DNA of 51,337 nt from a virus: IMG/VR virus record IMGVR_UViG_3300008114_000176, positions 1-51,337 of that record. One strand, 5' to 3'. Below the pieces are notes generated by a model that ran no database searches, was not told the DNA's origin, and saw only the letters and a list, made by a program, of their open reading frames with translations. Shown here piece after piece: positions 30,302-48,753 of the stretch (within the stretch, counting starts at the first letter, position 1; every line of letters begins with the position of its first letter). Position numbers and translations under genes: made by a program.

Positions 30302-30312
30302 GGTAAACACAA

Positions 30313-30576
30313 ATGGCATATACACTTAATAAAACTGATGGAACAATATTAGCTACCGTTGCAGACGGCCAAGTTGATGAGCTATCAACAGATATTACAC
30401 TTATTGGAAAAAATTATAGCGGCTTTGGCGAATCTATAAACGAAAATTTTATTAAAATTTTAGAAAATTTTTCTAGTACATCGCAACCATCTAGTCCTAT
30501 TAGAGGACAAATTTGGTTTGATGCTAACGAATCAAAATTAAAAGTTTATAACGGAACAGGGTTTGTACCAGTATGA
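30313..30576 (+). CDS. Tail fibre-like protein 2, N-terminal fragment (frame-broken)
   Basis: An 87-residue frame carrying only the first half of the shared fibre attachment module: GFGESINENFIKILENFS, SPIRGQIWFDA and VYNGTGFVPV. It ends at TGA 30574-30576. Paralogues 1, 3 and 4 continue with a second W-Y/F-D unit; here that unit resumes in the +1 frame, so this is the front of the gene at 30563-32083. Confidence 0.7.
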   Translation: MAYTLNKTDGTILATVADGQVDELSTDITLIGKNYSGFGESINENFIKILENFSSTSQPSSPIRGQIWFDANESKLKVYNGTGFVPV

Positions 30577-32083: not shown

Positions 32084-32085
32084 TA

Positions 32086-32093
32086 GTTAAATA
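32086..32093 (+). promoter_or_regulatory. Candidate late promoter box GTTAAATA ahead of fibre gene 3
   Basis: The same octamer as ahead of gp6, in the 26-base gap between fibre genes 2 and 3. A strong GGGGAG ribosome binding site follows at 32098-32103; the predicted start site (about 32099) falls at its edge, so use as a promoter is uncertain. Confidence 0.4.
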
Positions 32094-32109
32094 TGTAGGG
32101 GAGCGATAA

Positions 32110-33930: not shown

Positions 33931-33943
33931 ATAGCTTTATAGC

Positions 33944-33951
33944 GATAAATA
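33944..33951 (+). promoter_or_regulatory. Late promoter box GATAAATA ahead of fibre gene 4
   Basis: GATAAATA in the 43-base gap between fibre genes 3 and 4, 23 bases ahead of the ATG, with GGAG (33963-33966) in between. A weaker TTTAAATA (33926-33933) overlaps the stop of fibre gene 3. Confidence 0.65.
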
Positions 33952-33973
33952 ATAGTTAGAACGGAGTATATCA

Positions 33974-35731
33974 ATGGCATATCAAGTAGACAAATTTAAT
34001 GGAACTTTTCTAGTCTCAGTTGACGATGGAACCATTGATACCACCACTGATCTGCGTTTTGTAGGAAAAAATTACGCAGGCTACGGCGAAGTACAGAACG
34101 AAAATTTCTTGCATTTAATGGAAAATTTTGCAAATACTTCAGCACCACCCAAGGCAGTTGTTGGTCAAATTTGGTATGATAGCGGCAATAAAAAAATACG
34201 TTTCTATGATGGCGCACGATTTAGAACAGCTAGTGGAGCTGAAGTAGGCCCAACTGCACCTTCCGGATTACAGTCAGGCGATTTTTGGTTTGATACCAGC
34301 GCAGGACAACTATATACTTGGAACGGAACTGAGTTTGTATTAATTGGTCCAGAAACTCCTCCAGATCTAGGAGCAAGTGCAGTAGTTTCTCAAGTGGTAA
34401 AAGATACAATTGGCAACAATCATACCATTGTAAAGTTTCAAGCAGGTGGTGATGTAATATCAATAGTTAGTAAAGATGCATTTACACTAAACAGTACAAT
34501 TAATCCTATTACAGGATTCACAACAATTAAGAAAGGTGTTAATCTAGTTAACACTAATGGTACAACAGGAGTTACATCCACAGATCATTATTTCTGGGGT
34601 ACCGCAAGTAATGCAGCAAGGCTAGGTGGGTACCCAGCTTCAGAATATATTAGACTAGGTGAAGTATCGTTTGACAACGAAATTTCTTTTAAAGACACTG
34701 GTCTTACTATTGGCGATCAAAATGATCTGCGTATTAGAGTTGAAAACGGTGATGAACCAGTTATTGAAAATCGATTAGGTAATACAATAACTCTAAGAAT
34801 ACGAGTAAGTGACAGCGATTTAAGAAACGTTGGAATTATCTCCTCAACAGGAATGATTCCCGGAACTACTAATTTCTTTAATCTAGGATCTTCTACTTCT
34901 AGATGGGCCAATGTTTATTCTACATTGTTTACTGGGAATGTATTAGGCAATCTTACAGGTAATACATTGGGTATTCATAGAGGTAATTTGCTAGCCAACA
35001 ATGAAGTTTTATCATTTAATGCAGATACTCAAACATTTATTGGTAGTTTTACCGGTACACTTACCGGAAACGTAATTGGAAATATTACCGGAACATCTAC
35101 CAATTCTTTAAGTTTAAACAGTCTAGTTGGCGAGCAAGGTGCCGTAGCAACTTCAGTTGCACTTAGAGATGGTGCAGGAAATTTAACAGCAACTAGATTT
35201 ATTGGAGTTACTGATAAATCCGATAGATTAAAGATTGATGACGTAGCAGTAGATACTGATCCAAATTATCGATCTGCAAGAACAACTAAAACTGCAAACT
35301 CTATTGCAGCTAGAGACAGTTCTGGTAATTTATTAGCAAATACATTTGATGGTACTGCTACCGCAGCACAATATGCTGACCTTGCAGAAAAATACCTTGC
35401 AGATAAACAATATGATGTTGGAACAGTGGTTGCAATTGGTGGAGAAAAAGAAGTTACAGCCGCTACATATGGTGATAGAGCAATTGGCATAGTATCTGCC
35501 AATCCTGGATTTATGATGAACAAAGATTTAGAAGGCGGGACATATATAGCATTGAAGGGTCGAGTACCTGTAAAAGTACAAGGTACAGTTAAGAAAGGTG
35601 ACAAACTTGTTCCGGCCCAAAATATGTACGGTGCTGCATCAGCTGCTAATAAATCTGACACAGATTATTTTGCTATTGCCCTCGAAGACCATCAGTCTGA
35701 TTCGGGTGTTATAGAAGCATTGGTATTATAA
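33974..35731 (+). CDS. Tail fibre-like protein 4
   Basis: A 585-residue paralogue with the full N-terminal attachment module (GYGEVQNENFLHLMENFA, VVGQIWYDS, GDFWFDT, QLYTWNGTEFVLIGP) and then the SKDAFTLNS block shared with fibres 1 and 2. The shaft includes FTGTLTGNVIGNITGTS strands. The C-terminal about 130 residues, from AQYADLAEKYLAD, match fibre 3 (GRVPVKVQGTVKKGDKLV). Likely an alternative or additional receptor-binding fibre under its own late box. Confidence 0.8.
   Translation: MAYQVDKFNGTFLVSVDDGTIDTTTDLRFVGKNYAGYGEVQNENFLHLMENFANTSAPPKAVVGQIWYDSGNKKIRFYDGARFRTASGAEVGPTAPSGLQSGDFWFDTSAGQLYTWNGTEFVLIGPETPPDLGASAVVSQVVKDTIGNNHTIVKFQAGGDVISIVSKDAFTLNSTINPITGFTTIKKGVNLVNTNGTTGVTSTDHYFWGTASNAARLGGYPASEYIRLGEVSFDNEISFKDTGLTIGDQNDLRIRVENGDEPVIENRLGNTITLRIRVSDSDLRNVGIISSTGMIPGTTNFFNLGSSTSRWANVYSTLFTGNVLGNLTGNTLGIHRGNLLANNEVLSFNADTQTFIGSFTGTLTGNVIGNITGTSTNSLSLNSLVGEQGAVATSVALRDGAGNLTATRFIGVTDKSDRLKIDDVAVDTDPNYRSARTTKTANSIAARDSSGNLLANTFDGTATAAQYADLAEKYLADKQYDVGTVVAIGGEKEVTAATYGDRAIGIVSANPGFMMNKDLEGGTYIALKGRVPVKVQGTVKKGDKLVPAQNMYGAASAANKSDTDYFAIALEDHQSDSGVIEALVL
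35364..35391 (+). repeat. 28-bp exact direct repeat, copy in fibre gene 4
   Basis: Identical to 33551-33578, 1,813 bases away in the same orientation and the same reading frame, so recombination between the copies would produce an in-frame shaft/tip chimera or drop one gene's worth of DNA. Confidence 0.85.
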
Positions 35732-35740
35732 GGATAAATT

Positions 35741-36652
35741 ATGGCAATCGGTGATTTCATTTCCGCAACAGATTACAACTCAATCAGAACTAAAATTATT
35801 AACGTCATGAGTACAGGATCCGGTAATTTTGGTTATGGTCAAACAACTTTTAGTTCTTTAGTATCTGCTGGAAATACTGTAACAAAAACACAATGGGATT
35901 CTCTTAGATACGATATCTACAATGCTATTCTACACCAAACTGGATCAGCAGCTTCGTTGGTGCAAGTGGCAGTGGGTGATGTTATTAGATTTGGTGCAAG
36001 CAATCCTAATTCTCAATATGACACTGTTGCTAATACCGCAGTTACCAATCGATTCAATTTAGGAACTGGCCAGTTTGTAACAGAAGCAATTAACAGCACA
36101 TCATTTACTTCATCGTGGTATCAATCAGTTAGTGCTACAGCATCGGTTACATTTTCCACAGCAGAACAAGCAAGATTTTTCTTTAATGCAGGCGGAAAGA
36201 TTCGATTTGCTAGCACCAGAACCGGCGGCAACGGTGAAGCACAAAATACTTCGTGGAGTAATTTATTAAGTTCTGCAGGAGCTCAATCATTTGTAGGCGG
36301 CCCCTCTGGAATTAATTTCTTTTCTTTAACTAGTGGTTTTCAGACTTTTGCTGAAATTTCAGGAAGCTCGGCATATTCTAATAACAAATGGCGTTTAGAA
36401 GCATCGTGTAATGTTGCAAGCAATACATTAGGAACCGCCAATGTTGTTAATTTTAGAATAACGTGGTTAGATGCATACACTGATCCAGTGCCAGGAGGCG
36501 GAACACCGGCAATTCCTCCTGGAGATTTAGTTGACGGTACGCTTACTCTAACAGTTGATCAGGTTCGTCCTTCTGGATTTTTACAACCAAGTGGTACATT
36601 TACCACTGTAGGCCCATCGTCGTCTTCTTTGAGTGCAATCTCTGGTTCATAA
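35741..36652 (+). CDS. Fibre-like virion structural protein
   Basis: A 303-residue protein. It opens with DFISATDYNSIRTKIINVM and VTKTQWDSLRYDI, a helical N-terminal pattern that I have seen in structural proteins of aquatic T4-like phages. The rest is Ser/Thr/Gly-rich and beta-predicted, and ends with a low-complexity Pro/Gly/Ser region (GGGTPAIPPGD, GPSSSS). It follows fibre 4 by nine bases with AAGGA ahead of the ATG, and closes the fibre block. It could be a short fibre or a whisker-like part; no domain is recognised with confidence. Confidence 0.65.
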   Translation: MAIGDFISATDYNSIRTKIINVMSTGSGNFGYGQTTFSSLVSAGNTVTKTQWDSLRYDIYNAILHQTGSAASLVQVAVGDVIRFGASNPNSQYDTVANTAVTNRFNLGTGQFVTEAINSTSFTSSWYQSVSATASVTFSTAEQARFFFNAGGKIRFASTRTGGNGEAQNTSWSNLLSSAGAQSFVGGPSGINFFSLTSGFQTFAEISGSSAYSNNKWRLEASCNVASNTLGTANVVNFRITWLDAYTDPVPGGGTPAIPPGDLVDGTLTLTVDQVRPSGFLQPSGTFTTVGPSSSSLSAISGS

Positions 36653-36709: not shown

Positions 36710-37060
36710 ATGGACGACCGTCTAAAAGCTGCCTTAGATTTTTCAAATTATAGACAAACCCTAGCAATTCAAAGAAAAACCCTTAAAGAAAAAATTGAGG
36801 GCAAATTGACTTACGGCCACTCCGGCGGTATATTTAAGATTGATAGAACACTATTAGTTTTTGTTCAAATGCTAATTGATCAAGACAGAACAGAAAATGT
36901 TCCTCTAATTGATCAAAATGAAAATCCAATTTTAATTCCAGACCTACAAATATTTCGAGATGAAATTTTAGATAGGTATTTTACTGCCACCTACGAATAT
37001 CACGAAGAATACGAAAAAATTAAATCTAGCAGGACCGTAGAAAAATTATTGAATATATGA
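36710..37060 (+). CDS. Conserved phage protein of unknown function
   Basis: A 116-residue protein, mostly helical by eye, with RQTLAIQRKTLKEKIEGKL (helix), GGIFKIDRTLLVFVQMLI and a C-terminal acidic/aromatic helix (YFTATYEYHEEYEKIK). It is first after a perfect late box and overlaps the next gene by four bases (ATGA), so it is made with the glycosyltransferases and the tail proteins. I know no function; a small virion or scaffolding protein is possible. Confidence 0.6.
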   Translation: MDDRLKAALDFSNYRQTLAIQRKTLKEKIEGKLTYGHSGGIFKIDRTLLVFVQMLIDQDRTENVPLIDQNENPILIPDLQIFRDEILDRYFTATYEYHEEYEKIKSSRTVEKLLNI

Positions 37061-37917
37061 CTAAAGGCGTATTAATTTTTGCTCATAATGGCCCAGAAGT
37101 AGATTACGGTGTAATGGGTATAATTTCTGGCGGACTAGCAAAAAAACATTTGGGATTACCAGTCAGTTTAATAACAGACAAATGGACTATTGCTTGGTTA
37201 AAAGAATCAGGGATGTATGCTAGAGCCGAGTCTATTTTTGATAAGATTATTGAAATTGAAAAGCCTAGAACAAAAAATACAAGAAAACTGCATGATGGTT
37301 TCTACAGCCAGACAATTCCCTTTGTAAATTCAAATAGATTTTCAGTTTGGGATTTAAGTCCTTACGATCAAACTTTGCTAATTGATAGTGATTATCTAAT
37401 TTTTTCTAACAAACTAAATGAGTACTGGAACACAGATAGTAGCGTAATGTTAGGACATTCTATGAATGACATAACGGGTGACCGTAGTGGTATATTAGAT
37501 CAACGTGTAAGTGAAACTGGGATTCATATGTTTTGGGCTACCACAGTAATGTTTACTAAAAATGAAGAAAGCAGATTCTTTTTTAAATTAGTTGATTATA
37601 TTAAAGACAATTACAGATATTATGCCGACCTATTTAGATTTGATCCAAGACAATATCGAAATGATATTTCATTCAGCATTGCTAAACATATCATGAACGG
37701 GTTTGAAACAGAATTTATTTACACTCTTCCTCCTATTCTAACGGTGTTTGACAAAGATATTTTGCATGATGTAATCGAAAATCGATTGACATTTCTAATT
37801 GAAAAACCACTCAATTGCGGAGATTTCTGGGCTGCAACTACACAAGGATCTGATGTTCATATTATGAACAAACAAAGTATTATTAGAAATAAAGAAAAAT
37901 TACTGGAGTTAATATGA
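37057..37917 (+). CDS. GT-A-type glycosyltransferase-like protein
   Basis: A 286-residue protein. It has a Rossmann-like start (GVLIFAHNGPEVDYG) and an acidic metal-binding DSD at 110-112 in the setting QTLLIDSDYLIF, the typical D-x-D of GT-A enzymes that bind nucleotide-sugar and metal. The C-terminal part (YRNDISFSIAKHIM) fits the acceptor side, like GT8 relatives. The gene overlaps its neighbours by four bases on both sides. Donor and acceptor are unknown. Transfer to virion proteins or lipid/glycan targets are both possible. Confidence 0.65.
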   Translation: MTKGVLIFAHNGPEVDYGVMGIISGGLAKKHLGLPVSLITDKWTIAWLKESGMYARAESIFDKIIEIEKPRTKNTRKLHDGFYSQTIPFVNSNRFSVWDLSPYDQTLLIDSDYLIFSNKLNEYWNTDSSVMLGHSMNDITGDRSGILDQRVSETGIHMFWATTVMFTKNEESRFFFKLVDYIKDNYRYYADLFRFDPRQYRNDISFSIAKHIMNGFETEFIYTLPPILTVFDKDILHDVIENRLTFLIEKPLNCGDFWAATTQGSDVHIMNKQSIIRNKEKLLELI

Positions 37918-38756
37918 ACTTTGGTTATTTAATTGTAGTTGCTTCAAATAAAGATATAGACTATCTTAAATTAGCCTATGCTCTTGCATTAAGTATTAAA
38001 AATACTCAGAAGCCAGGATATGATAACGTTGCTTTAGTAATTGACAATCCTCAACTAGTTGACAATTTAAAAAGCCCTTGGGTCTTTGATCATGTTATTG
38101 CTTGGGATAAGGAAACGTATTGGGATGGTCGTAGTTGGATGGATCAATTATCTCCTTTTGAAAATACAGTATGTCTTGATGCAGATATGATTTTCCTTAG
38201 AGATCATAGTCACTGGATTGATTACTTTATTGAAAATTGTGAATTATATATTCCCTCAAAGGCATTGACCTATAGAGGCGAAACAATTACAAATGATTTT
38301 TATAGAAAAACATTTACAAAGAACGGTCTTCCTAATTTATATTCTATGTTTACTTTTTTTAAACAGGGATCTGAAATTGCAACAGAATTTTTTAATCTAG
38401 GTAGATATATTATAAAAAATCCTTTGGAGTTTAGTAATTTATATCTTACAAAACATAAACCAAAAGTTGTTGGAACAGATGAAGCGTTTGCCTTGAGTGC
38501 AAAGATTTTAGATATAAGTGATATTGTAAGTTATGATCTAGCGTTTCCTAACATTGTTCATATGAAACCTATGGTTCAAAATTGGTCATGGACTGCTGAT
38601 AAAGTCACTGAACATGCTGGTTTTTATTTTAATATCCAAGGAAAATTAAAAATAGGAAATTATCAGCAACATAATATTGTGCATTATGTTGAAAAAGATC
38701 TAGTTAATGACGAAATAGTTAGTATGTTAGAGGAGATTGCATGGAACAAGAACTAA
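37914..38756 (+). CDS. GT-A-type glycosyltransferase-like protein
   Basis: A 280-residue protein related in layout to the previous one: N-terminal YLIVVASNKDIDYLKLAYALALSI, then the metal-binding DAD at 89-91 in NTVCLDADMIFLRD, and later VVGTDEAFALSAKI, where GT8-like enzymes keep a conserved Asp/Glu. The His-rich C terminus (VHMKP, QHNIVHYVEK) may complete the metal site, as H-x-K-P-W does in GT8 enzymes. It starts inside the end of the preceding gene. Substrate unknown. Confidence 0.65.
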   Translation: MNFGYLIVVASNKDIDYLKLAYALALSIKNTQKPGYDNVALVIDNPQLVDNLKSPWVFDHVIAWDKETYWDGRSWMDQLSPFENTVCLDADMIFLRDHSHWIDYFIENCELYIPSKALTYRGETITNDFYRKTFTKNGLPNLYSMFTFFKQGSEIATEFFNLGRYIIKNPLEFSNLYLTKHKPKVVGTDEAFALSAKILDISDIVSYDLAFPNIVHMKPMVQNWSWTADKVTEHAGFYFNIQGKLKIGNYQQHNIVHYVEKDLVNDEIVSMLEEIAWNKN

Positions 38757-39334
38757 TGGATTTTGACGAGTGGATCAAATTACCAGTCAATCAAACCGTT
38801 GAATACTATGCAACATTTAAAGATGACGGATCTTTAATTGGAATATATCCTTCTCATGCGGTATTTGATAATACAAATAAGATAAAAATTGATGAAGAAA
38901 TTGCTACAGCAGTGTCCACAGGTGCGGAAAATTTATTTTCTTATAGGGTTGATCTACCAACTAAGAAATTAGTTAAATTAAACAAATTTTCCACTCATAG
39001 TCTAATAAAGATTGATGATATCTTGCATAGAATAATAGATAAAAAGTGGTCAAATATGCAAGATCCTGATATCACAATTTCACATGATACAAAAAATAGT
39101 ACATTAATATTTTCAATGAGCAACAAATACTCAAATAATATTATTTGGGACGGTGCAACTGAAATGATTTTTTTAGTAACTGATTACAACGACCCCAATG
39201 TCCTCCTTCATATGTTAAGCATTAGGGCAGGCGATATTACAGAAAATACAAAATTATTTACATTAGATTTGCCAAATAGATTTAGTGTTTACACAAGACG
39301 AATTTTTGACAAATATATATTTGAAACAATATGA
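38741..39334 (+). CDS. Unknown protein in the glycosyltransferase operon
   Basis: A 197-residue protein with a GAGGAG ribosome binding site five bases ahead of its ATG, inside the end of the previous gene (16-base overlap). Alternating strands (TVEYYATFKDDGSLIGIYPS, NKYSNNIIWDG, LFTLDLPNRFSVYTRR) suggest a beta-rich fold. It has no D-x-D, no Cys motif and no membrane segment. Its place between two glycosyltransferase-like genes suggests an accessory or acceptor role, which is only inference. Confidence 0.6.
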   Translation: MEQELMDFDEWIKLPVNQTVEYYATFKDDGSLIGIYPSHAVFDNTNKIKIDEEIATAVSTGAENLFSYRVDLPTKKLVKLNKFSTHSLIKIDDILHRIIDKKWSNMQDPDITISHDTKNSTLIFSMSNKYSNNIIWDGATEMIFLVTDYNDPNVLLHMLSIRAGDITENTKLFTLDLPNRFSVYTRRIFDKYIFETI

Positions 39335-40242
39335 AAACAATAGAACTTGACATTGTATTTTTAAGTTATGACGAGCCCAATGCAGATAAGCATTATGCTG
39401 ATTTATGCAATAAACTTCCTTGGGCTAAACGAGTTCACGGAGTGAAGGGTAGTGATGCTGCACATAAGGCAGCAGCTGAGTTAAGTGAAACTGAATGGGT
39501 TATCACGGTTGACGCTGATAATATAGTTAATCCTAAATTCTTTAATCTAGACATTGATACAAGTAATCCTAAGATACAGGTATATAGCTGGTTAGGAAAA
39601 AACAAACTTAATGGCTTACTTTACGGTAATGGCGGACTTAAAATATGGAAACGAGATTTTATTCTCAATATGAAAACTCATGAAGCTAGTGAAAGTGATC
39701 GTGCTCAAGTAGACTTTTGTTGGGAAGATGGTTATCGTCAATTTAAAGAATGTTATAGTGATACTGATATTACCGGAAGTCCTTTTCAAGCATGGAGAGC
39801 AGGATTTCGTGAAGGCGTTAAGATGACCTTGCTTGACGGAATTAAAGTGGCACCACAAGAGATTAGTGAACGTGTTTGGTGGCACAATTTGCATAGATTA
39901 CGTATGTGGTCAACAGTTGGTGCTCATGAAGAAAATGGACTTTATGCCATATATGGTGCTAGATTAGGCACTTGGTTAGCAAACTGTACCGACTGGAATT
40001 ATGTAGAGGTTCGAGACTTTGAAATCCTTAAAGGTATTTGGAATCAATATGGCCGCCCATTTGAAGAATTAGGCGGTAATGGTCTAGATGAAGAAATTAA
40101 ATCATTAGGTGAAAAAATTAAATTAGAACTAGGTTTTGATTATCCCTATCTAGATAGTCAACAGAGCAAATATACTTTAGATTTGTACGAAGAAACTATC
40201 AAATTAACAAATACATATATGAGGACCACTGATGGTCTATGA
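39331..40242 (+). CDS. GT-A-type glycosyltransferase-like protein (YDEPNAD family)
   Basis: A 303-residue protein starting with DIVFLSYDEPNADKHYADL, then AKRVHGVKGSDAAHKAAAEL and the metal-binding DAD at 61-63 (WVITVDADNIV), followed by a GNGGLKIW strand and a GSPFQAWRAGFREGVKM helix. This pattern recurs in large T4-like aquatic phages, where it is usually annotated as glycosyltransferase. The same domain is found at the C terminus of the next protein, so the two are paralogues. Four- and eleven-base overlaps tie it to its neighbours. Confidence 0.7.
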   Translation: MKTIELDIVFLSYDEPNADKHYADLCNKLPWAKRVHGVKGSDAAHKAAAELSETEWVITVDADNIVNPKFFNLDIDTSNPKIQVYSWLGKNKLNGLLYGNGGLKIWKRDFILNMKTHEASESDRAQVDFCWEDGYRQFKECYSDTDITGSPFQAWRAGFREGVKMTLLDGIKVAPQEISERVWWHNLHRLRMWSTVGAHEENGLYAIYGARLGTWLANCTDWNYVEVRDFEILKGIWNQYGRPFEELGGNGLDEEIKSLGEKIKLELGFDYPYLDSQQSKYTLDLYEETIKLTNTYMRTTDGL

Positions 40243-41917
40243 TATTTTTTATGTAAGTAAAAATATTATTGATGAACAAAATTGGAAACAATTTCGTTCT
40301 AAATTTCCATCTTCTCAAAAAATTGATAATGTAAAATCGTTTGATGACATTAAAAAGAAAGCATTTACAAAATTCTTTTGGGTTGTATGGGATGATTTAA
40401 ACATTGTTGATACTTTTAAATTTGATTACAAAGTTTCTACATGGGATCAAGATTATATTCATGTGTGGTTAAATGGTGAAAACTACGACGGTGTTGTATT
40501 GTTTTCAAAAAAGTCAGTTCCCTCGGAAAAAGAATTTCAACATAGATTTTATGTTAACAAAAAAGAAATCGATATAGTAGCTAGTAAACCTAAAAAATAC
40601 CCTATTTTTATTATTAGCAATTATGCAGAATATCAATCTGCATTAAAAAATTCACCTTTAACAATGTTTTGGGTAGTATGGCCAAACATTGAAATAATTA
40701 ATGATCAAATTTTTGAAACTTACTTTAGTCACCATAATTCCTATGATCGAAATGAAAATCATGTGTTTAAAAATATTTCTAACGATCAGGAATCGTTTGT
40801 TAACGGTGTTGTGTTATTTTCTACAAATAAGCCAGTATCTAAGAAAGAGATTGAACATAGATTTTTTATAGATAAAAAAGAACACAATCTAGTGGCCAGC
40901 AAATATAAACCGTACGACAAATTTGTAATCGATACGTTTAGCGATTACGAACATGCTCTTAACACAGCTGATACAGATATGTTTTGGGCAATTCCTCCGG
41001 AAGTTGAACCTGTACCAGATTTTAAATTTGATCTTCAATTTCCATACCAAAATAAGTATGAGCTCAGTATAAATCACGTCTTTAAAAATATTGATGTTGA
41101 AGAAATTAAGTACAACGGTATAATGTTATTATCGAAGAAAAGACCTATTTCTGCAAGAGAAGTTGAATATAGATATTTGATTGAAAAGAAAGAATATGAC
41201 CTTGTGGCAAGTAAATTAAAATTATACGATATTGTGTTTATATCTTATAACGAACCTAATGCAGATGAAAATTTTGCTAACTTAATTGATCGATTTCCAA
41301 GAGCTAAACGTGTACACGGCGTAAAAGGTATTCACCAAGCACATATTGCAGCCGCAAAATTAGCAACAACTCCAATGTTTTGGGTAGTAGACGGTGATGC
41401 AATAGTAGAAGATGATTTTCAATTTGACCTACTACTACCTAAACACGATACAGATATTGTTCATGTTTGGTTAAGCAAAAATCCTATCAACGGATTAACA
41501 TACGGCTATGGTGGTGTTAAATTATTGCCTAAAAACTTAACTATTAATATGGAAATGACTAGTGTTGACATGACTATGGCAATTAGCAAAAAATTTAAAG
41601 TTATAAAAGAAGTTAGTAATCTAACAGTTTTTAATACAGATCCGTTCAATACTTGGAAATCTGCGTTTAGAGAGTGTGTAAAATTAGCCAGCCGTCCTGT
41701 TGATTCTGGATATCAAGAAGAAACTGAAGATAGATTAATTACTTGGTGCAGTGTTGGATCTGATAAACTTTATGGAGAATATAGTATAGCAGGAGCTCGA
41801 GCTGGAAAACAGTACGGGCTATTGAATATTGCCGATGCTAACCAGTTAAGAAAAATTAATGATTTTGAATGGTTGCAAAATCAATTTAATTTATTGCAAC
41901 CCTTAGTAGAAAAATAA
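40232..41917 (+). CDS. Multi-repeat glycosyltransferase-like protein: three decayed units plus one complete domain
   Basis: A 561-residue protein. Residues 331-561 are a complete domain paralogous to the previous gene (DIVFISYNEPNAD, AKRVHGVKGIHQAH, DGD at 387-389, YGYGGVKLL, NTWKSAFRECVK). Ahead of it lie three shorter repeats at about 1-119, 120-225 and 226-330. Each has an FWVVW-like strand at the place of the metal-binding loop, then an HVW/HVF strand, a G-V-x-L-x-S-x-x-x-x-x-S strand-turn, and ends (K)KE-x-x-x-VASK. In the repeats the D-G-D is replaced by W-D-D, W-P-N and P-P-E, so they are probably non-catalytic, perhaps for acceptor binding. It ends 17 bases before the convergent SGNH gene. 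Confidence 0.65.
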   Translation: MVYDIFYVSKNIIDEQNWKQFRSKFPSSQKIDNVKSFDDIKKKAFTKFFWVVWDDLNIVDTFKFDYKVSTWDQDYIHVWLNGENYDGVVLFSKKSVPSEKEFQHRFYVNKKEIDIVASKPKKYPIFIISNYAEYQSALKNSPLTMFWVVWPNIEIINDQIFETYFSHHNSYDRNENHVFKNISNDQESFVNGVVLFSTNKPVSKKEIEHRFFIDKKEHNLVASKYKPYDKFVIDTFSDYEHALNTADTDMFWAIPPEVEPVPDFKFDLQFPYQNKYELSINHVFKNIDVEEIKYNGIMLLSKKRPISAREVEYRYLIEKKEYDLVASKLKLYDIVFISYNEPNADENFANLIDRFPRAKRVHGVKGIHQAHIAAAKLATTPMFWVVDGDAIVEDDFQFDLLLPKHDTDIVHVWLSKNPINGLTYGYGGVKLLPKNLTINMEMTSVDMTMAISKKFKVIKEVSNLTVFNTDPFNTWKSAFRECVKLASRPVDSGYQEETEDRLITWCSVGSDKLYGEYSIAGARAGKQYGLLNIADANQLRKINDFEWLQNQFNLLQPLVEK

Positions 41918-41928
41918 TAATCTATACT

Positions 41929-41947
41929 AGATGCTTAATTGGCATCT
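41929..41947. terminator. Possible hairpin between the convergent operons
   Basis: AGATGC (41929-41934), a seven-base loop and GCATCT (41942-41947) can form a six-base-pair stem at the meeting point of the two operons. Read leftward it is followed by a T-rich stretch (ATTATTATTTTTC), as expected of a weak terminator for the radical SAM operon. Rightward there is no T run. Confidence 0.3.
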
Positions 41948-42798
41948 CTATCATCCGGACTTTTACCCCATCCGAAATGTTCTCTTGCTAAATCTCTAGC
42001 ATATTCAGCATGACCGGGCGGAAGTACGTGCCCACACGCAGTCATTTGTTCGAACGCTCCTTTATTGAACCATCGATCATTGATCTTATCAAATTCTAAT
42101 AAATCAAACCAAAGCATTCGAAGCCATTGATTTTTAGAGTTATTAACTATTTCTTTGTATTGCCAAAATTCACCTACAGTGTTTAAGAAAATAGGATCTC
42201 TTCCAATTCTCCGCTTAACATAATTTTTAATTTGTAAACATTCTTTTAGATAATCAATAAGCAATTCTTCATCACTGAGTGTTGTCCAAATAGCTTCAAA
42301 CAATTTTTTATGTTTACTTTCATATCCTCGATAATGAAATCCCGGAATAGATGATTTAACCCAATTAAAAATTTTCCCAATATCTTGTGTATCTTCGTGA
42401 TACCAACCTAATCTTCCAATGCTTGTTAAGCCTATGAAAACATAATCTGGCAAGTCTGCTCGACTTCTTAATGATTCAAGATAGGCAATAGTTCTAGTTG
42501 ATATGCCCGTCATACATGATCCGCCAATGGCCCCATTAACTACATTAACAGTGTCATTAACTAGCATAGTATCAACTAGTTCACCTAATAATGTAGCCCA
42601 CACATATTTCTTATTACTAAGTTGCCAATGATTATGTAAATCAAGATTTCTATCTAGCATTGCATGCCTTTTGTTACACCATGCTACGTCAAATTCTACG
42701 TCGCAAGAATGATGCCCTGGATACAAATCTGGAAAAACTTCTGGATCAGACAATCCGTCGCCAGCAGTAAAACTATCCCCATTTACATAAATTTTCAT
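41935..42798 (-). CDS. SGNH/GDSL-type hydrolase-like protein
   Basis: A 287-residue protein. The N terminus MKIYVNGDSFTAGDGL has block I (GDSF, Ser9 as nucleophile). NGAIGGSC (near 88-95) is a plausible oxyanion block II, FIGLTSIGRLG is in the place of block III but lacks the usual G-x-N-D, and GHVLPPGHAEYA near the C terminus gives a candidate catalytic His263. Family enzymes remove acyl groups from sugars or lipids. Here the gene closes the radical SAM operon (four-base overlap with the preceding gene) and faces the glycosyltransferase operon, so glycan deacylation is attractive but unproven. No signal peptide is seen, so it should act in the cytoplasm. Confidence 0.65.
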   Translation of the reverse strand: MKIYVNGDSFTAGDGLSDPEVFPDLYPGHHSCDVEFDVAWCNKRHAMLDRNLDLHNHWQLSNKKYVWATLLGELVDTMLVNDTVNVVNGAIGGSCMTGISTRTIAYLESLRSRADLPDYVFIGLTSIGRLGWYHEDTQDIGKIFNWVKSSIPGFHYRGYESKHKKLFEAIWTTLSDEELLIDYLKECLQIKNYVKRRIGRDPIFLNTVGEFWQYKEIVNNSKNQWLRMLWFDLLEFDKINDRWFNKGAFEQMTACGHVLPPGHAEYARDLAREHFGWGKSPDDRDAN

Positions 42799-43595
42799 AA
42801 TTCAAATCCTACTTCTAATCCTCGAGATAAATTTTGATGCATGAGTTGTTTAATTTCCCATTTATTCTTTTTAAAGTTTCCTAAAATAATCCACGGTGGC
42901 ATAACTTGTAAATTATTTTGATTGCACCACTCTATATATGCTGGATTAGGAAGAATACCTTTATTTAATTGTGGATTAAATACATATTCAAACCTAGCCG
43001 AAATTGTTTTGTAATTGCTAGTTTCTTCATCAACTGAACTTCCAGTAATCCATTGGTCATACTGATGTTTTCCTAAATCGTCAAATCTTAAAATTAGATC
43101 GTGTTGTGAGTATTCGCAATCTTCCGGCTGTATTTTAATATCAATATTTTCTAAATATGCTCCGTTTGTATTAGTAAAATAAACAGAATAGTAATATTCT
43201 AAAGAATGAATGTATAAATTAATATTTTGCCAGGATTTCACAAAGCTGGGATAGTTTTGTTTCGTATTGTCTCCGTTGACTATATTTTTTAATCTGTCAG
43301 TGTACAATACCCATTTTTTATGTGACGCATTGAGCCATTGTTGATCAATACCAACAATTTTATTAAACATGATTTGAGGTAGATTTTTTTCTACAGCAAA
43401 CTTATTAACTATATCAATTGCAGCATTTAGATTATTAATAGTCTCATTAGAACGAGTTATAAACGAAGTATCTCTAGCAAAATAACTCATATTCATTTTT
43501 TTAGAAAAAATGCTTTCAAACCAAACAGACGCTATGGGTGTATTGTTAGGCTCTAATTCTAAATAGTCGCCTGATTTTAAAAAAATAAATTTCAT
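42795..43595 (-). CDS. Unknown protein in the radical SAM operon
   Basis: A 266-residue protein with no recognised domain, starting MKFIFLKSGDYLELE and ending SRGLEVGFEL. It is rich in Asn, Tyr and Trp, has two Cys only in its second half and no metal motif, signal peptide or membrane segment. It overlaps the radical SAM gene upstream and the SGNH gene downstream by four bases each (ATGA), so its product is made with theirs. It could be a substrate-binding partner or the modified protein; the sequence does not decide. Confidence 0.6.
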   Translation of the reverse strand: MKFIFLKSGDYLELEPNNTPIASVWFESIFSKKMNMSYFARDTSFITRSNETINNLNAAIDIVNKFAVEKNLPQIMFNKIVGIDQQWLNASHKKWVLYTDRLKNIVNGDNTKQNYPSFVKSWQNINLYIHSLEYYYSVYFTNTNGAYLENIDIKIQPEDCEYSQHDLILRFDDLGKHQYDQWITGSSVDEETSNYKTISARFEYVFNPQLNKGILPNPAYIEWCNQNNLQVMPPWIILGNFKKNKWEIKQLMHQNLSRGLEVGFEL

Positions 43596-44800
43596 TTGAG
43601 TTTTGGAAAAATACTATTTAAATCTTCGTTACGCACAGTATCAATTTTTTCTGTAAAATATTTAAAGTATTCCCACTGTCCGTTGGCTTCTGGAGTGTAG
43701 TAATGGCCATAGAGATCTTCCCAATTGCGTCGATCAATAATACCGTGTAATGAATTAATTTTATCCTGTCGCATTTGTTTAGGTAGTATATTAGCCGATA
43801 GATAGTCTGGGCTTTGAACATGATTTAATCCTACTCTAATGCGTATTTTATTGTTGGACAAATATCTTTCTAATTCGTCAACATACATAAAATTATAGAC
43901 GCTGACAGTTTGAGTTACACGATAAATGAATTTGTAATTATTTAAAAATAATTTTAAGTTATTAATGGTTAAATCCCAATCGCTTAAACTTCTAATGTAA
44001 GTGTTGCGTTCTCCAACATCATCGATGCTGAAACTAATATGTACTTCTTTAAATTTAGTCAATAGATCCAATGCTGGAGTAATCTTATCCCATTTGTAAT
44101 TTAAATTTGTGTGATAATGTATAGCAATATCAGTTTTGCCTTCACGTACTAATTTTTCTAGTAGTTTAAAGTGAGTAGGTACAAGAAATGGTTCGCCGCC
44201 ACTTATATGTATTTGTTCTAGATTAGGAGCAAATTCTGTTAACCTGTTGTAAAAAGATTCATCGTCTACCCAATCAAAACTAAAATCAGGATTACTTTTA
44301 ATCCAATGATAACCACTAGCTAATTTGACTGTATCTTTTAATTTATAGTAATCTTGAATCCAACTTGTGCTAGAGTCTGCATTACAGCTTCGACATTTTA
44401 AATTACAAAAATTTCCTAATCGTAATTCAATGTGACGAAGATCTGTCTTAATAGAGCCGTCGGCAGCGGTTAGTGCAGCGTGATCTAAATTACGATTGGT
44501 TTCCTGTTGGCGCTTACTCTTTCCGCCAGCCTGTTCAATTTGATGGCATCCCTCACATGCAGTCGGTACCTTGCCTGCTAACATGTCTAGTCTAATAGTT
44601 TTATAATTATCGCAGTTAATAATCTCTGGTATATTACTATTCATAACTGTGACAGTTTTAGTTTTATCTTCACTAACCCTGTTCCAGCTATGTCCGTTGC
44701 CCTTACCTGAATGTTTGGCAACACAACAAATTGTACAATTGCCTTGTGGAAACACACTCAGATGTATCCAAGGAAAATCACAAATAAATTTATCACTCAT
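43592..44800 (-). CDS. Twitch-type radical SAM protein A
   Basis: A 402-residue protein. The radical SAM cluster motif is C132-x3-C136-x2-C139 (FCNLKCRSC), followed by ISGGEPFL, the SAM-binding GGE motif, and IHYHTNLN and FSIDDVGE strands. The N-terminal 90 residues carry further Cys (C22, C25, C26, C82, C85) after a DFPWIHLSVFPQG start, fitting an auxiliary cluster of the twitch/SPASM kind placed at the N terminus. All motifs are intact. Such enzymes usually modify peptides or small metabolites by radical chemistry. The gene overlaps its neighbours by four bases on both sides. Confidence 0.8.
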   Translation of the reverse strand: MSDKFICDFPWIHLSVFPQGNCTICCVAKHSGKGNGHSWNRVSEDKTKTVTVMNSNIPEIINCDNYKTIRLDMLAGKVPTACEGCHQIEQAGGKSKRQQETNRNLDHAALTAADGSIKTDLRHIELRLGNFCNLKCRSCNADSSTSWIQDYYKLKDTVKLASGYHWIKSNPDFSFDWVDDESFYNRLTEFAPNLEQIHISGGEPFLVPTHFKLLEKLVREGKTDIAIHYHTNLNYKWDKITPALDLLTKFKEVHISFSIDDVGERNTYIRSLSDWDLTINNLKLFLNNYKFIYRVTQTVSVYNFMYVDELERYLSNNKIRIRVGLNHVQSPDYLSANILPKQMRQDKINSLHGIIDRRNWEDLYGHYYTPEANGQWEYFKYFTEKIDTVRNEDLNSIFPKLK

Positions 44801-46011
44801 AATGTATCAAACCATTCGGCTAATTCTGGTACAGCCGTTCTTATATCTTCTTTTCTAATACGGTCTAACTTTATAGTATCTCTTTTAAATTTTTGTTGTA
44901 GTTCTAATGTTTTTTCTAGAGAAATTGTTGAGTTTAAATAAAATTTAACTTCGTTATATAAGTTAGCTAGCCATCGACTTTCTTCTTCAGTTACAATTGA
45001 AGTTATTTTTTCTAAATGTTCATCTAGTTGTATTCTTACTTTATTTTTTAACTCTTCAGGTAGTATTGAAGACATATAATGTTGCGGCCAGTTAACATGA
45101 CTTACTAGTACTTTTCTAGTTGACATTTTTAATTCTATTAGTTTATCAATTAATTTAGTAAAATTAAAAACAGTGAGAATATTTATAGTAGTTGATACTA
45201 CATAACCAACATTCGATTGCGATAAACGGACTAAGTTTTCTTCCACTCTAGGCCAATCGGTTCCAGATCTACTGTACTCTGCATTTTCATCAATGCCGTC
45301 GATACTTGCAAAAATTCTAACATCTTTAAATCGTTTCCAAATATCAACTAGATCGTAATCTTTATACTTGATAGTACTCATGTTGGTGTTGTAACGCAAA
45401 AACACATCATATCGTTCTTTGGCAATTAACTTATCTAATATCTGATAGTGTTCAGCCATAAGTAATGGTTCACCGCCAGCAAAGTAAATCTCTTCAACAT
45501 CATCAATAAACTGATCAACGTATTTCATTAAATCAGTTCCGTAGTATGAACTATCAAGAAATTTTATCTTAGTTTTCTTTTCCTCAGGAGTGAAGTCGTC
45601 AAACCAAGAACTGCTACTACCATGTCCGCACATACGACATTTAAAGTTACAGATATTACTAAATCTAAAATCCCAAAAAATTATTTCAAATGTTTCGTAG
45701 GTACCGTCGGGTAATGTATTACTTTTAGCTTTTTCGATATGATGGCTGAATCTTTCAGTAACCGCCATTCTATAGCTTACACCCCCGCTGTCTTCTTTTT
45801 TAGTACAGGTTAGGCATCCTTCTGGAATTTTATTTTCTAAAAAGCTTCTACGCATAGATTTAGTATGTTCGTTATTCCATATTTCTTCTAGTGTAGTATC
45901 TTTTAAGTTTCCAAAGTCTTGCCCAAGATACGCACAACAAGGCTTAACACGACCGTTAGGTTCTGTATTAAGATGTATCCACGGCACTATACAAAATTTA
46001 TCTTCGCTCAT
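44797..46011 (-). CDS. Twitch-type radical SAM protein B
   Basis: A 404-residue protein with the same plan: N-terminal FCIVPWIHLNTEPNGRVKPCC (C25, C26) and GCLTC (C66, C69), then the radical SAM motif C121-x3-C125-x2-C128 (ICNFKCRMC), FAGGEPLL, RYNTNMS and FASIDGIDE. The LEEIWN stretch near 41-46 is typical of SPASM/twitch proteins. It is closer to protein A than to C or D. ATGA overlaps join it to protein A downstream and to the 3' part of protein C upstream. Confidence 0.8.
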   Translation of the reverse strand: MSEDKFCIVPWIHLNTEPNGRVKPCCAYLGQDFGNLKDTTLEEIWNNEHTKSMRRSFLENKIPEGCLTCTKKEDSGGVSYRMAVTERFSHHIEKAKSNTLPDGTYETFEIIFWDFRFSNICNFKCRMCGHGSSSSWFDDFTPEEKKTKIKFLDSSYYGTDLMKYVDQFIDDVEEIYFAGGEPLLMAEHYQILDKLIAKERYDVFLRYNTNMSTIKYKDYDLVDIWKRFKDVRIFASIDGIDENAEYSRSGTDWPRVEENLVRLSQSNVGYVVSTTINILTVFNFTKLIDKLIELKMSTRKVLVSHVNWPQHYMSSILPEELKNKVRIQLDEHLEKITSIVTEEESRWLANLYNEVKFYLNSTISLEKTLELQQKFKRDTIKLDRIRKEDIRTAVPELAEWFDTL

Positions 46012-46430
46012 ATTGTGTTAAACCATTCTATAAATTCTGTTGGGAATACACTAGCTAATGCGATATTTTTTCTATCGGCATATTGTTGTGTAAAACTTTT
46101 TAAATCGTGCACCTTATTGGTTTGGCTGTCGGTATCTTCTTGACTGCGATCAACGTTTCGAAGATATACAGCTATTCTCTCTATTTGATTACTTTCAGCA
46201 GGACTTAACCCAACAACATTACTTAGCCAAGTTTCAATTTTGTCTGCTTGTGCTTGTTTCAAATTATCTGGCAATACATTTAAATTTTGAAAACTAGGAA
46301 AACGCACTAGATTAAGACTCATATGGAACTGATGCCCGCCAAATTGTTTACGTAGTTCTAACATGTCTGTCATAAACTCTGTTATGGTCCAAATGCTTAG
46401 GGCACTAATAGTCATCATAACATGTATCAT
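46008..46430 (-). CDS. Radical SAM protein C, C-terminal part (frame-broken)
   Basis: A 140-residue frame matching the C-terminal part of protein D (MTTVNLTSITTYCDFIRYLLDLRKHYN aligns with its MTISALSIWTITEFMTDMLELRKQFG). The same frame is open upstream to about 46543 and there encodes TSGEGYGAHGEFVRHGLDY, matching TSGEAVGAPAEYIRYGLDY in protein D, so the ATG at 46430 is internal and this is the back of the gene that starts at 47311. It may still be made from the internal ATG, but lacks the cluster-binding domain. Confidence 0.7.
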   Translation of the reverse strand: MIHVMMTISALSIWTITEFMTDMLELRKQFGGHQFHMSLNLVRFPSFQNLNVLPDNLKQAQADKIETWLSNVVGLSPAESNQIERIAVYLRNVDRSQEDTDSQTNKVHDLKSFTQQYADRKNIALASVFPTEFIEWFNTI

Positions 46431-46486
46431 GTTATATTTCCCTTCTTTGGCAAACTGTATTAAATTATTACGCCATACTGTATAAT

Positions 46487-47311
46487 CTAATCCATGACGA
46501 ACAAACTCGCCGTGGGCACCGTATCCTTCGCCGCTAGTTTACTAGCATTGATTAGTTGATGTAGTTTTACCTGATCCATTACTAGATTACTGTTAACGGC
46601 AAAATCAAAATTTGTACCTTCACATTCATCTAACAGTTTCCAAAATGAAGGACTACGGGTAGGTTCGCCGCCTGTAATTCTTAGTTCTTGTAAATTGTTT
46701 TTAAGGCTAGCATGAAACCATTTAAAAAATGCTTCAATGTAGGGATTGTTTTCATTTTTAATTCCGTAAGGCAAAGCATGTTCTCCAGCATTTTGAAATG
46801 CTCCACCGCCAGCTGTCTTTAATTCAATATATGGTCCGTTAACTTTAATATCGCTAGCCCAGGTAGAACTAAACTCTGCGTTACAATAACTACAACTTAA
46901 ATTACATAAATTATCAAAACTAATTTCTAAAGTTTTTGGATCAATATCTGATCCAGGATCTAATTTAGCTAGTTGAAGTATTTCATCTTCTTCGTAAATC
47001 CTAGTCTTATAAACTCGATCACTGTATACATCCGGTGCCGCATTATCCTCAACAGTCCAGCAATAAGCGCACTCGTCACACCGCTTACCAATTAGCATTT
47101 CTAATCGACGATCTTTCTTAAAGGTTGTATTATGTAGTGCGGATGGATTACGACTGATCTCGGCTATAGGTATTGTATGCGCCGGCGGCAAATGACAACT
47201 AGCTGTTCTTCCGTTGCCTAACCATATAGTAGCGTTATACCATTTTGCGGCACAAAAACTAGGACTTATTTCATTAATAATTTCTATTGTGCGTTTTACG
47301 TTTGTTGGCAT
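46487..47311 (-). CDS. Radical SAM protein C, N-terminal part (frame-broken)
   Basis: A 274-residue frame with N-terminal C20, C39, C78, C81, C84, radical SAM motif C136-x3-C140-x2-C143 (LCNLSCSYC) and RITGGEPTR. It is about 45% alike to protein D by eye. After INASK the frame leaves the family sequence and ends at 46487 with a short nonsense tail, while the true continuation is in the -1 frame. The protein would lack the C-terminal third of the barrel, so is probably inactive unless the frame is restored. It starts 16 bases inside protein D. Confidence 0.75.
   Translation of the reverse strand: MPTNVKRTIEIINEISPSFCAAKWYNATIWLGNGRTASCHLPPAHTIPIAEISRNPSALHNTTFKKDRRLEMLIGKRCDECAYCWTVEDNAAPDVYSDRVYKTRIYEEDEILQLAKLDPGSDIDPKTLEISFDNLCNLSCSYCNAEFSSTWASDIKVNGPYIELKTAGGGAFQNAGEHALPYGIKNENNPYIEAFFKWFHASLKNNLQELRITGGEPTRSPSFWKLLDECEGTNFDFAVNSNLVMDQVKLHQLINASKLAAKDTVPTASLFVMD
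46533..46546. repeat. Perfect inverted repeat at the frame break of radical SAM gene C
   Basis: GCTAGT-TT-ACTAGC: two six-base arms with two bases between. The switch from the front frame (INASK) to the back frame (TSGEG) must lie inside it (46536-46540). Against protein D about 11-12 residues are missing here. Confidence 0.75.
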
Positions 47312-48630
47312 AATTGATAAAATTTTGTAAGTGCTGGAAAGATTTTATTAAAGTCAGTTCCTCGTCTAATATCATATTCAGTGATAAATGCTGCAAAGTC
47401 TTTTCTTAATTGTAATTCTTTGCTGTCAGTACCGTTCATATAGTCAAGCATACGACGCAACTGATCTATTTCACTTTCTGATAAATCAGGTCGTTCTATA
47501 ATCAATGCTGTTACGTCTTTTGTAAATTGTTGTTTACTAGAAGGGTCTAAAATAGTCAATGACAAGAATTCTGGATACCGTAAAAAGTTAGTCATAAACT
47601 GAACTTTGTTAAATGTAGCATTCTTGTTATAATGCTTACGTAGGTCTAGCAAGTATCGTATAAAATCACAATAGGTTGTAATACTAGTTAAGTTAACAGT
47701 GGTCATTACAGCAACAATGTTATTGGTATTATCTAAAACTTTTTCCAAGTTTTTAGTCCATGCTGAATAATCTAATCCGTATCTAATATATTCAGCAGGA
47801 GCACCTACTGCTTCGCCGCTAGTAAATATTTGTACTTCTTTAATATTTTTAGATATACTATTGAGCTTAGTGATCATTCGATCAACTAGTTCGTCTGGAA
47901 TGCCTAAATTGGTATTAATAGCAAATACTAAATCAGATTTAGGATTAGCTTCGATGTCGTCAAGCATACGCCATACGTCTTTGCTTAACAGCGGCTCGCC
48001 GCCTGTAAGTCTAAGCGTTTCAAGTTTTTGGTATAGTTCCGGCCACCATTTCCAAAAAGCATCTACATAAGGATTAGGGTCACTATGTTTGATAGGCATT
48101 TTACCTACCTCTTTAAACCATCCAAATCCGTTATACTTTTGACTAGTTGGATATTCCCCGTGCTTGGCAATTTCGTCATACCACTGGCTACTAAGGTCTG
48201 GGCTACAGTAAGCACATTTAAAATTACAAACATTACTAAAACTAATTTCAACGTATGTAGGTTCTACGTCGGCTGTTTTATTTTTAACAACCTCGCCAAT
48301 GTGAGGATACGCCCACGATGTAGCACTTTTATAACTTCTATCACTAATGTGGCCGCTGTCCTCAGCAGTCCAACAATAGTCACACTCGCTCGGCCGAACA
48401 CCGTCGAGCATTTTTTGCATTTGTTCTTTTTTATAATTAGTATTATGTAGAGCCTTGTAATTTTGCTCTAATTCGTCTAGCGGAATCTTATGTGGGGAAG
48501 GATGATGGCAGCTGTGATTAAACCCATTTTGAAGATACAATGTTAATTGATACCATTTGGCTAAACAAAAGCTAGGACTAACAGCATTTAAGATTGGAAT
48601 AACTTTTTGAAATTTTTCGTGTTCACTCAT
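47296..48630 (-). CDS. Twitch-type radical SAM protein D
   Basis: A 444-residue protein, the first gene of the leftward accessory operon. N-terminal Cys at 22, 41, 83 and 86 (SECDYCWT), radical SAM motif C135-x3-C139-x2-C142 (VCNFKCAYC), RLTGGEPLL, FAINTNLG and FTSGEAVGAPAEY. The last 130 residues are a helical extension shared with protein C. C and D start alike (AVSPSFCLAKWY / EISPSFCAAKWY) and form one subgroup, A and B another. All key residues are present. Substrate unknown. Confidence 0.8.
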   Translation of the reverse strand: MSEHEKFQKVIPILNAVSPSFCLAKWYQLTLYLQNGFNHSCHHPSPHKIPLDELEQNYKALHNTNYKKEQMQKMLDGVRPSECDYCWTAEDSGHISDRSYKSATSWAYPHIGEVVKNKTADVEPTYVEISFSNVCNFKCAYCSPDLSSQWYDEIAKHGEYPTSQKYNGFGWFKEVGKMPIKHSDPNPYVDAFWKWWPELYQKLETLRLTGGEPLLSKDVWRMLDDIEANPKSDLVFAINTNLGIPDELVDRMITKLNSISKNIKEVQIFTSGEAVGAPAEYIRYGLDYSAWTKNLEKVLDNTNNIVAVMTTVNLTSITTYCDFIRYLLDLRKHYNKNATFNKVQFMTNFLRYPEFLSLTILDPSSKQQFTKDVTALIIERPDLSESEIDQLRRMLDYMNGTDSKELQLRKDFAAFITEYDIRRGTDFNKIFPALTKFYQLCQQT

Positions 48631-48753
48631 ATGATAATTGTTTTCATTTTATTATAACTTAGTCACGTAAATTGAGTGAGACTAATATCATCAATTAATT
48701 TTTTTTAGATGATTCGAAACCCTTAAAAAAGTATTCTTTTTGTTTCAACAGTC
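48631..48753. other. 123-base intergenic region, possible promoter for the radical SAM operon
   Basis: The longest gap in the window. On the minus strand it has a TATAAT (forward 48651-48656) 20 bases ahead of the radical SAM D start, without a clear -35. A TTTAAATA late-like box lies at 48755-48762, overlapping the end of the upstream gene. ATCATC (48688-48693) and GATGAT (48709-48714) can pair across a T-rich loop. None of these is decisive. Confidence 0.3.

Follow-up and report, generated by a model that had tools for sequence, protein, structure and literature searches.

Radical SAM (S-adenosylmethionine) genes have been described in several groups of phages. The Campylobacter phages CP220 and CPt10 were reported to encode 11 and 12 radical SAM proteins, five of them in one cluster (PMC2853527), and a T4-like marine contig carried 12 radical SAM genes together with an Fe-S carrier (PMC5332604). 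In pelagimyophages, radical SAM cassettes and glycosyltransferases (GT), of which GT8 was the most represented, were located in the fibre region (PMC7029224), and both kinds of genes were listed among marine phage functions (PMC7150976). In the sections of these reports that concern us, the phage radical SAM genes were treated as auxiliary metabolism. Here, we analysed a 51,337-base virus record (IMG/VR record IMGVR_UViG_3300008114_000176, positions 1 to 51,337; hereafter the window) in which four radical SAM genes, called D, C, B and A in the order of transcription, formed an array with two further genes, one for a partner of 266 residues (P) and one for an SGNH-like protein. The array was real, widespread and conserved. 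Tandem radical SAM genes in phages were already in print, as were the enzymes and the phage trend; the conserved order, P and a link to bacteria were apparently new, and no description of these three was found in the titles or passages of the open-licence literature that were searched. A preliminary description made from the letters of the window had placed the four genes correctly, and this observation was confirmed, while its interpretation was partly supported.

The window carried T4-type genes (SbcCD-like, late sigma, baseplate proteins and fibres). The nearest relative of its 1133-residue baseplate protein was in Agrobacterium phage Atu_ph07 (37.6% identity; 61 phage records matched, many of them jumbo phages). 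An identical D was found on contigs of up to 76 kb, and a 90% identical D on one 353 kb contig. The array itself occupied positions 41935-48630 of the minus strand and was transcribed as follows:

47296-48630, minus strand: D, radical SAM protein with an N-terminal twitch, transcribed first (NF033640 348.2 bits; invariant cysteines; AlphaFold pLDDT 94.6)
46008-47311, minus strand: C, N-terminal-twitch radical SAM protein, broken into open reading frames (ORFs) 46487-47311 and 46008-46430
44797-46011, minus strand: B, N-terminal-twitch radical SAM protein (NF033640 379.2 bits; matches to SPASM PF13186 and to PF04055)
43592-44800, minus strand: A, N-terminal-twitch radical SAM protein (NF033640 332.0 bits)
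42795-43595, minus strand: P, 266-residue partner, a divergent member of the family that ends many arrays (hhalign, profile and array position)
41935-42798, minus strand: SGNH-like protein with a GDS motif near the N-terminus and conserved C-terminal histidines (11 GDS/GCS proteins of related loci aligned)

Adjacent genes overlapped by 16 bases (D/C) and by 4 bases each (C/B, B/A, A/P and P/SGNH), which agreed with the operon strung together by overlaps that had been proposed. The curated full-protein cut-off of NF033640 (N_Twi_rSAM) was 170 bits. A, B and D all exceeded it, and C did so via its upstream piece (172.5 bits; the downstream piece scored 49.3). According to Pfam, SPASM PF13186 covered residues 7-70 of B (4.4e-12), ahead of PF04055 at 117-281 (1.8e-13). 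An N-terminal twitch-like domain with four cysteines was present in all four proteins. The CX3CX2C and GGE motifs were invariant among 33 aligned D/C proteins and 10 aligned B/A proteins. The N-terminal cysteines were invariant as well, namely C22, C41, C83 and C86 in D and C7, C25, C26, C66 and C69 in B. Thus, the assignment of the four genes to twitch-type radical SAM enzymes with extra N-terminal cysteines was borne out, and each protein would hold two clusters, a [4Fe-4S] cluster that cleaves SAM and an auxiliary one bound by the N-terminal twitch domain. A search of the PDB with D alone returned no match.

Gene C had been described as broken, and its lesion was a small one. The window copy was 1304 bases long, compared with 1329 in all five relatives that were compared. 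Since four of these five were otherwise identical to the window copy (the fifth had at least one further difference), the lesion was a single 25-base deletion. An intact 442-residue C was present in all 14 loci from L006 to L019. The deletion was clean relative to the four otherwise identical copies, and an assembly error may be its source.

When 59 representatives were placed on a tree, the four types fell into separate groups, and the window copies stood amid orthologues from other contigs. With midpoint rooting, C and D grouped together (97/99) and B joined C/D (96/90), while A and B did not form a clade. Of the two subfamilies proposed previously, C/D was therefore retained and A/B was not. 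Similarly, the paralogy implied by the earlier idea of gene duplication held, and duplication within one phage was ruled out, as the four separate lineages recurred in the same order elsewhere. The four array types represent old lineages.

The spread of the array was followed in four scans of viral contigs (types D, P, B and A) and one scan of genome contigs. The frequencies below refer to the best 80 of 197 for D, to the best 80 of 309 for P, which gave 79 loci, and to the best 80 of at least 574 for B, while the genome-contig set comprised 75 distinct loci out of the best 80 of 86. Genes were called as the longest ORF of at least 60 residues, and the labels A to D in the array surveys were given by the best profile above 60 bits (300 in some analyses). 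Contigs were possibly redundant; where a count is given as distinct, redundancy was removed at the level of the protein sequence. One further profile (rSAM8) matched 784 proteins of all radical SAM kinds and was not used.

The order of the genes was strongly preferred. Among distinct adjacent pairs from the viral scans, C followed D in 78 cases and preceded it in none; the corresponding counts were 76 versus 5 for C and B, 22 versus 9 for B and A, and 46 versus 5 for B and P. Each of the 26 loci from the A-type scan had the order D-C-B-A or D-C-B-B-A, which supported a conserved gene order. Of the 80 B-scan loci, 70 had at least two such genes and 53 had at least three. The longest run comprised eight genes. 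The order D-C-B(-B/A)-P was seen in dozens of divergent phage contigs. Thus, contrary to what had been supposed, a tandem array beside fibres was not unusual, and its recurrence as an ordered row in many distant viruses suggested a dedicated chemical assembly line, which would probably decorate a surface-located sugar chain or protein. On the other hand, the longest run was a single gene in 33 of the 80 D-scan loci. At least two genes were called after D in 28 of these 33, so that most of them were not contig ends. The scattering of single genes, raised in the preliminary description as a sign against an operon, was therefore found in part: lone D genes were common, yet every A-type locus was ordered. 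D was the array member most often found alone in its scan, and it consequently looks like the core to which the other types were added.

P was found to be a widespread and hitherto unnamed family, to judge from profile comparisons. The family of the window copy aligned with a second family (hhalign 1e-6, prob 91) that closed the arrays of other phages and was also present in five of the genome-contig loci with radical SAM genes (L101, L111, L126, L139 and L151). A profile built without 266-residue members matched two sequence-distinct 266-residue homologues in the first round (3e-11 and 5e-9), both of them represented by a pair of overlapping loci. The second round added one more homologue, and the window copy was matched in neither round. 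An iterated profile included 266-residue members, which made the score of the window copy circular, and this score was not used. The supposed conservation of the 266-residue partner was thus upheld through its family. In 45 of the 79 P-scan loci, P was present with no such radical SAM gene. Nine P proteins had no match in PHROGs and the window copy had one weak match, and a tblastn search of phage records with one P (L179) gave none. The model of another P (L194; pLDDT 93.8) matched nothing in the PDB at E 0.001 with Foldseek. In a structural ranking, 28 of its first 33 rows were cyclophilins or peptidyl-prolyl isomerases (Z 7.3-8.2, rmsd (root-mean-square deviation) 3.1-3.8, 132-147 residues aligned), where models without a clear match reach a best Z of 7-8; this likeness is suggestive only. 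Ten viral models, all uncharacterized, matched the P model at E < 0.001. One of them was the 300-residue protein A0A2L0UZJ4 of Atu_ph07 (prob 1.00), which fits gp166 of this phage by length.

On the plus strand, the following features preceded the array in the window:

28229-30301, 30563-32083, 32110-33930, 33974-35731 and 35741-36652 (28229-36652 overall), plus strand: tail fibre or virion structural genes, the first four with PHROGs tail or virion matches
36710-37060, plus strand: 116-residue protein between the fibres and GTb, found in 37 D-scan loci and the window
37057-37917 and 37914-38756 (37057-38756 overall), plus strand: two GT8-like genes (GTb), whose family profile matches glycogenin-1
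38741-39334, plus strand: 197-residue protein between GTb and GTa, kept in relatives
39331-40242, plus strand: GTa, glycosyltransferase-like, with a weak Pfam GT2 match (E 0.1), upstream of D in many relatives
40232-41917, plus strand: GTa-family protein with repeated domains, of the same BLAST family as 39331-40242 (repeats recognised by eye)

The fibre-region gene at 33974-35731 contained Peptidase_G2 (PF11962), and that at 35741-36652 had no PHROGs match and was assigned by its place and BLAST family alone. The GTb profile (20 members) matched glycogenin-1, a GT8 enzyme, with E 2e-6 over positions 12-113 of 276. By eye, the protein at 40232-41917 had several GTa-like domain copies, only some of which kept the acidic motif.

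Of 96 distinct D genes, 57 had GTa on the same strand at a distance of at most four genes upstream and 4 had it downstream; for GTb, these counts were 48 and none. In many loci, the 116-residue protein and the fibres preceded GTa and GTb. A carbamoyltransferase gene, identified by Pfam in one viral family member and as NodU-like in another, lay at most three genes behind P in 23 of the 47 cases in which P itself followed a radical SAM gene. The dereplicated P-scan loci comprised 33 with radical SAM genes, of which 24 had GTa, 15 had GTb and 21 had carbamoyltransferase, and 35 without them, for which these counts were 0, 2 and 4 (Fisher tests: 3e-11, 2e-4 and 1e-5, respectively). When P loci with more than 14 kb coding were considered, GTa was found in 20 of 27 loci with radical SAM genes and in 0 of 11 without. 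Other neighbour families, each identified by Pfam on one representative, were GT7, UDP-glucose dehydrogenase, RmlC, NTP-transferase and carbamoyltransferase. An APS-kinase-like neighbour gene scored 34 bits, below its cut-off, and an amidinotransferase label for one gene of a relative was dropped for want of a Pfam match.

We tentatively propose, as a reading with somewhat less than an even chance of being right, that the array encodes a line for tailoring glycoconjugates and belongs with the fibre region. Its enzymes would act in turn on one glycan or glycoconjugate that is made by the neighbouring transferases and serves the receptor-binding apparatus or the cell surface. The preferred gene order, the positions of GTa and GTb, the enrichment of GTa, GTb and carbamoyltransferase in P loci with radical SAM genes, the other neighbour families in phage and genome-contig loci, and the presence of the sugar enzymes BtrN, BlsE and DesII among the sequence or fold neighbours all favoured it. 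In such a line, the upstream GT8-like and glycosyltransferase-like enzymes would build or attach a sugar chain. Each radical SAM enzyme would make a 5'-deoxyadenosyl radical and abstract a hydrogen atom from an unactivated carbon. D would act first and could work alone, while C, B (often repeated) and A might oxidise, epimerise or deoxygenate its product at further positions or make bonds there. P, whose gene closes the array, might bind and present the growing substrate, and the SGNH-like protein, or the carbamoyltransferase in relatives, would finish the sugar chain. The decorated product would reside on a tail fibre or surface polymer and change recognition.

Several observations weighed against this proposal. 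Lone D genes were frequent, as noted above, and 39 of the 96 distinct D genes had no GTa upstream. GTa had no profile match to any glycosyltransferase in the PDB. The SGNH-like protein had no match in Pfam (E 1), PHROGs, NCBIfam or by PDB profile; its GDS motif was kept among relatives, and its assignment as the hydrolase proposed earlier stayed at the level of a motif. Moreover, the GTa and carbamoyltransferase profiles were built from array loci, favouring the radical SAM group, and the P loci without radical SAM genes were shorter (11 of 35 with more than 14 kb coding), which made the control among P loci not fully even. The block from D to SGNH (41935-48630) was antiparallel to the fibre and transferase block in the window clade, and therefore the array was not co-transcribed with these genes there.

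The two blocks were parallel in L021, L250, L251 and L253. The flanks of the array block matched on both sides, except for an extra gene in L250 and L251, and thus it seems to have moved as one unit. Among the 25 of 37 inverted repeat pairs that were listed (14-28 bases, about 71-88% complementary), one pair bracketed the block (41840-41860 and 48694-48714; 21 bases, 81%). Since this repeat was A+T-rich and imperfect, no invertible switch is claimed.

Many twitch/SPASM radical SAM enzymes act on peptides, and a rather unlikely alternative to glycan tailoring was a modification like that of ribosomally synthesized and post-translationally modified peptides (RiPPs). Namely, a fibre or virion protein would be its own precursor and undergo successive side-chain or backbone changes, with P as a peptide-binding partner. 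The structural neighbours of the D model (pLDDT 94.6) were radical SAM enzymes, some acting on peptides and others on sugars, and the fold therefore does not name the substrate. The top match was the peptide enzyme SkfB (Z 13.5, rmsd 4.0, 231 residues aligned), tied with BlsE (12.8) and DesII (12.7) and followed by the peptide enzymes anSME, a sactipeptide maturase and SuiB (Z 11.7-12.3), which counted against the glycoconjugate proposal. The resemblance of the P model to cyclophilin-like barrels (Z about 8) would suit a peptide-binding partner, but it was at the level reached by models without true relatives.

A further argument for peptides came from the isolated phage Atu_ph07, in which gp170 directly followed the radical SAM protein gp171, with another radical SAM protein, gp168, two genes on; P-like A0A2L0UZJ4 belongs to the same phage. 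On the other hand, the P profiles missed gp166 and all 12 Atu_ph07 proteins tried, and the best NF033640 score in this phage was 24.4 bits. The C-terminus of gp170 (L346:23119-24009) was rich in cysteine and histidine, which makes this protein a candidate radical SAM substrate. The virion proteins of Atu_ph07 were reported to lie mostly in three clusters, one of them spanning coding sequences (CDS) 170-215, at the edge of which gp170 is numbered; the word "radical" was absent from the main text of that report (PMC6102473). In the window, none of the five fibre genes had a cysteine in its last 45 residues (0/5). As in the preliminary description, no precursor peptide was recognised in the phage loci; the listing of cysteine tails covered the first 60 of 256 genes. 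Additionally, the most recurrent neighbours of the phage arrays were glycan genes.

Relatives of the array enzymes in bacteria bore on the peptide alternative as well. D and C types were also found on Bdellovibrionota contigs, some of the loci being near capsule-export, PqqD-like and Peptidase_S74 genes. The 75 genome-contig loci were mostly labelled as Bdellovibrionota or their kin, or just as Deltaproteobacteria or Proteobacteria; others came from Flavobacteriales, Alphaproteobacteria and Beijerinckia. One such radical SAM gene was present in 49 of the 75 loci and at least two in 25, with eight in L109. In loci of the Bacteriovoracaceae type, a PqqD-family gene was found (13 of the 75 loci) and adjoined a radical SAM gene in nine of these 13, which points to a peptide and thus speaks against glycan tailoring. 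A Peptidase_S74 protein was present in 13 loci. In the phages, a profile made only from bacterial b8 proteins detected no PqqD-like frame among 13,195 frames of the window and the 80 D-scan loci, the P- and B-scan loci not being searched.

The Peptidase_S74 proteins (L137:3439-3891, L138:11746-12198, L157:11776-12210, L160:11746-12255 and those of nine more loci) had a strongly conserved N-terminal stretch followed by Peptidase_S74. They were often near PqqD-family and D-type radical SAM genes, and each could be a precursor with a built-in chaperone. Their N-terminal stretch gave just two weak phage frames, L060:14657-14821 (E 0.00095) and L084:14119-14229 (E 0.0045), which argued against the RiPP-like alternative in phages.

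The bacterial homologues suggested a history of exchange. In a quick tree of 120 proteins, phage and genome-contig D/C types were intermixed, with 18 label changes, at least nine of them forced by the starred branches; repeated exchange between phages and bacteria was therefore favoured. The neighbours in genome-contig loci L107 and L149 were those of phage loci. By eye, D-type genes lay near an obg-like gene in L105, L109, L110, L120, L121, L123, L131, L153 and L154, and in all of these loci but L109 also near rplU- or rpmA-like genes; therefore, the D type may be an old chromosomal resident in those bacteria. It is conceivable, though we consider it unlikely, that a line of up to eight paralogues, with P as substrate carrier, encoded in a preferred order, acts serially on one fibre-borne glycopeptide or glycan and was exchanged with the predatory Bdellovibrionota, whose surface structures of the fibre or capsule type would be decorated by the same enzymes. 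Fibre proteins are known from Bdellovibrio; no paper that connects them with radical SAM was found in the open-licence literature.

The same bacterial loci also bore on another explanation, a change of the host surface. Their neighbours (n=75) included an ABC ATPase in 27 loci, an ABC2 permease in 18, GT1 in 26, DegT in 12 and a carbamoyltransferase in 14, where Pfam was run on a single representative each for the first four families. Such polysaccharide-type export genes would fit remodelling of the O-antigen or capsule of the infected cell, which would keep competing phages or debris from binding. The description of pelagimyophages likewise assigned fibre-region glycosyltransferases, with GT8 most represented, to a change of the host O-chain and noted radical SAM cassettes there (PMC7029224). 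However, the bacterial export permease profile matched 0 of 262 phage loci and the ATPase profile 1 of 262 (L048), although the export system of the host would be usable by a phage. Furthermore, the parallel orientation of array and fibre genes in L021, L250, L251 and L253 fits virion assembly. We regarded host-surface remodelling as unlikely. The evidence at hand does not separate sugar, peptide and host-surface substrates.

A role in auxiliary metabolism, in which the enzymes would make a cofactor or support host metabolism during infection, was the published guess for CP220 and CPt10 (PMC2853527) and seemed to us very improbable here. A-type Fe-S carriers were present on 12 of 15 phage contigs that we chose from the loci, including two on the 353-kb relative of the window, and would agree with such a role; they also fit the supply of clusters to the phage's own enzymes. 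All 15 contigs had NF033640 matches above the cut-off, 16 of them on one contig. The arrays sat beside fibres and transferases, and no cofactor pathway was recognised beside them, no systematic search having been made. Thus, the array was better explained by tailoring of a surface or virion glycoconjugate than by general metabolism.

Compared with known enzymes, the matches to BtrN, BlsE and DesII (sugar or cyclitol chemistry) and to SkfB, SuiB and anSME (peptide chemistry) covered mainly the radical SAM core. BtrN shared this core, and its twitch aligned with the N-terminal domain of B/A; the matched stretch was C-terminal in BtrN (chain 168-238 of 269) and its counterpart in B/A was N-terminal (profile 7-74). 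NF033640 covers all four array proteins and names no substrate, and the ordered tandem and P are outside the model. Vibrio phage K566 had three annotated radical SAM genes within 5 kb, and two of the proteins passed NF033640. In the stretches of K566 and KVP40 that were examined there was no P, the identity to B was about 25%, and KVP40 was below the NF033640 cut-off. The cluster of CP220 and CPt10, set beside our array by its description only, was presented as a metabolic module, with no fibre or transferase neighbours given in that part of the report (PMC2853527). The preferred order and the recurrent partner and neighbours tie the present family to the region of the fibres and glycosyltransferases, and so provide a concrete and testable argument that radical chemistry serves to modify the phage surface or the virion. 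They also give the unnamed family P a genomic context, and via the same enzymes the phages are connected with the Bdellovibrionota, another kind of bacterial killer. In pelagimyophages, the genes for VrlC and gp14 flank the host recognition cluster; in the window, the array was situated beyond the baseplate and fibre genes. The accounts of the pelagimyophage islands (PMC7029224) and of the T4-like marine contig (PMC5332604) did not give gene order, P or mechanism in the passages concerned; like the window, both had radical SAM genes with glycosyltransferases beside tail fibres.

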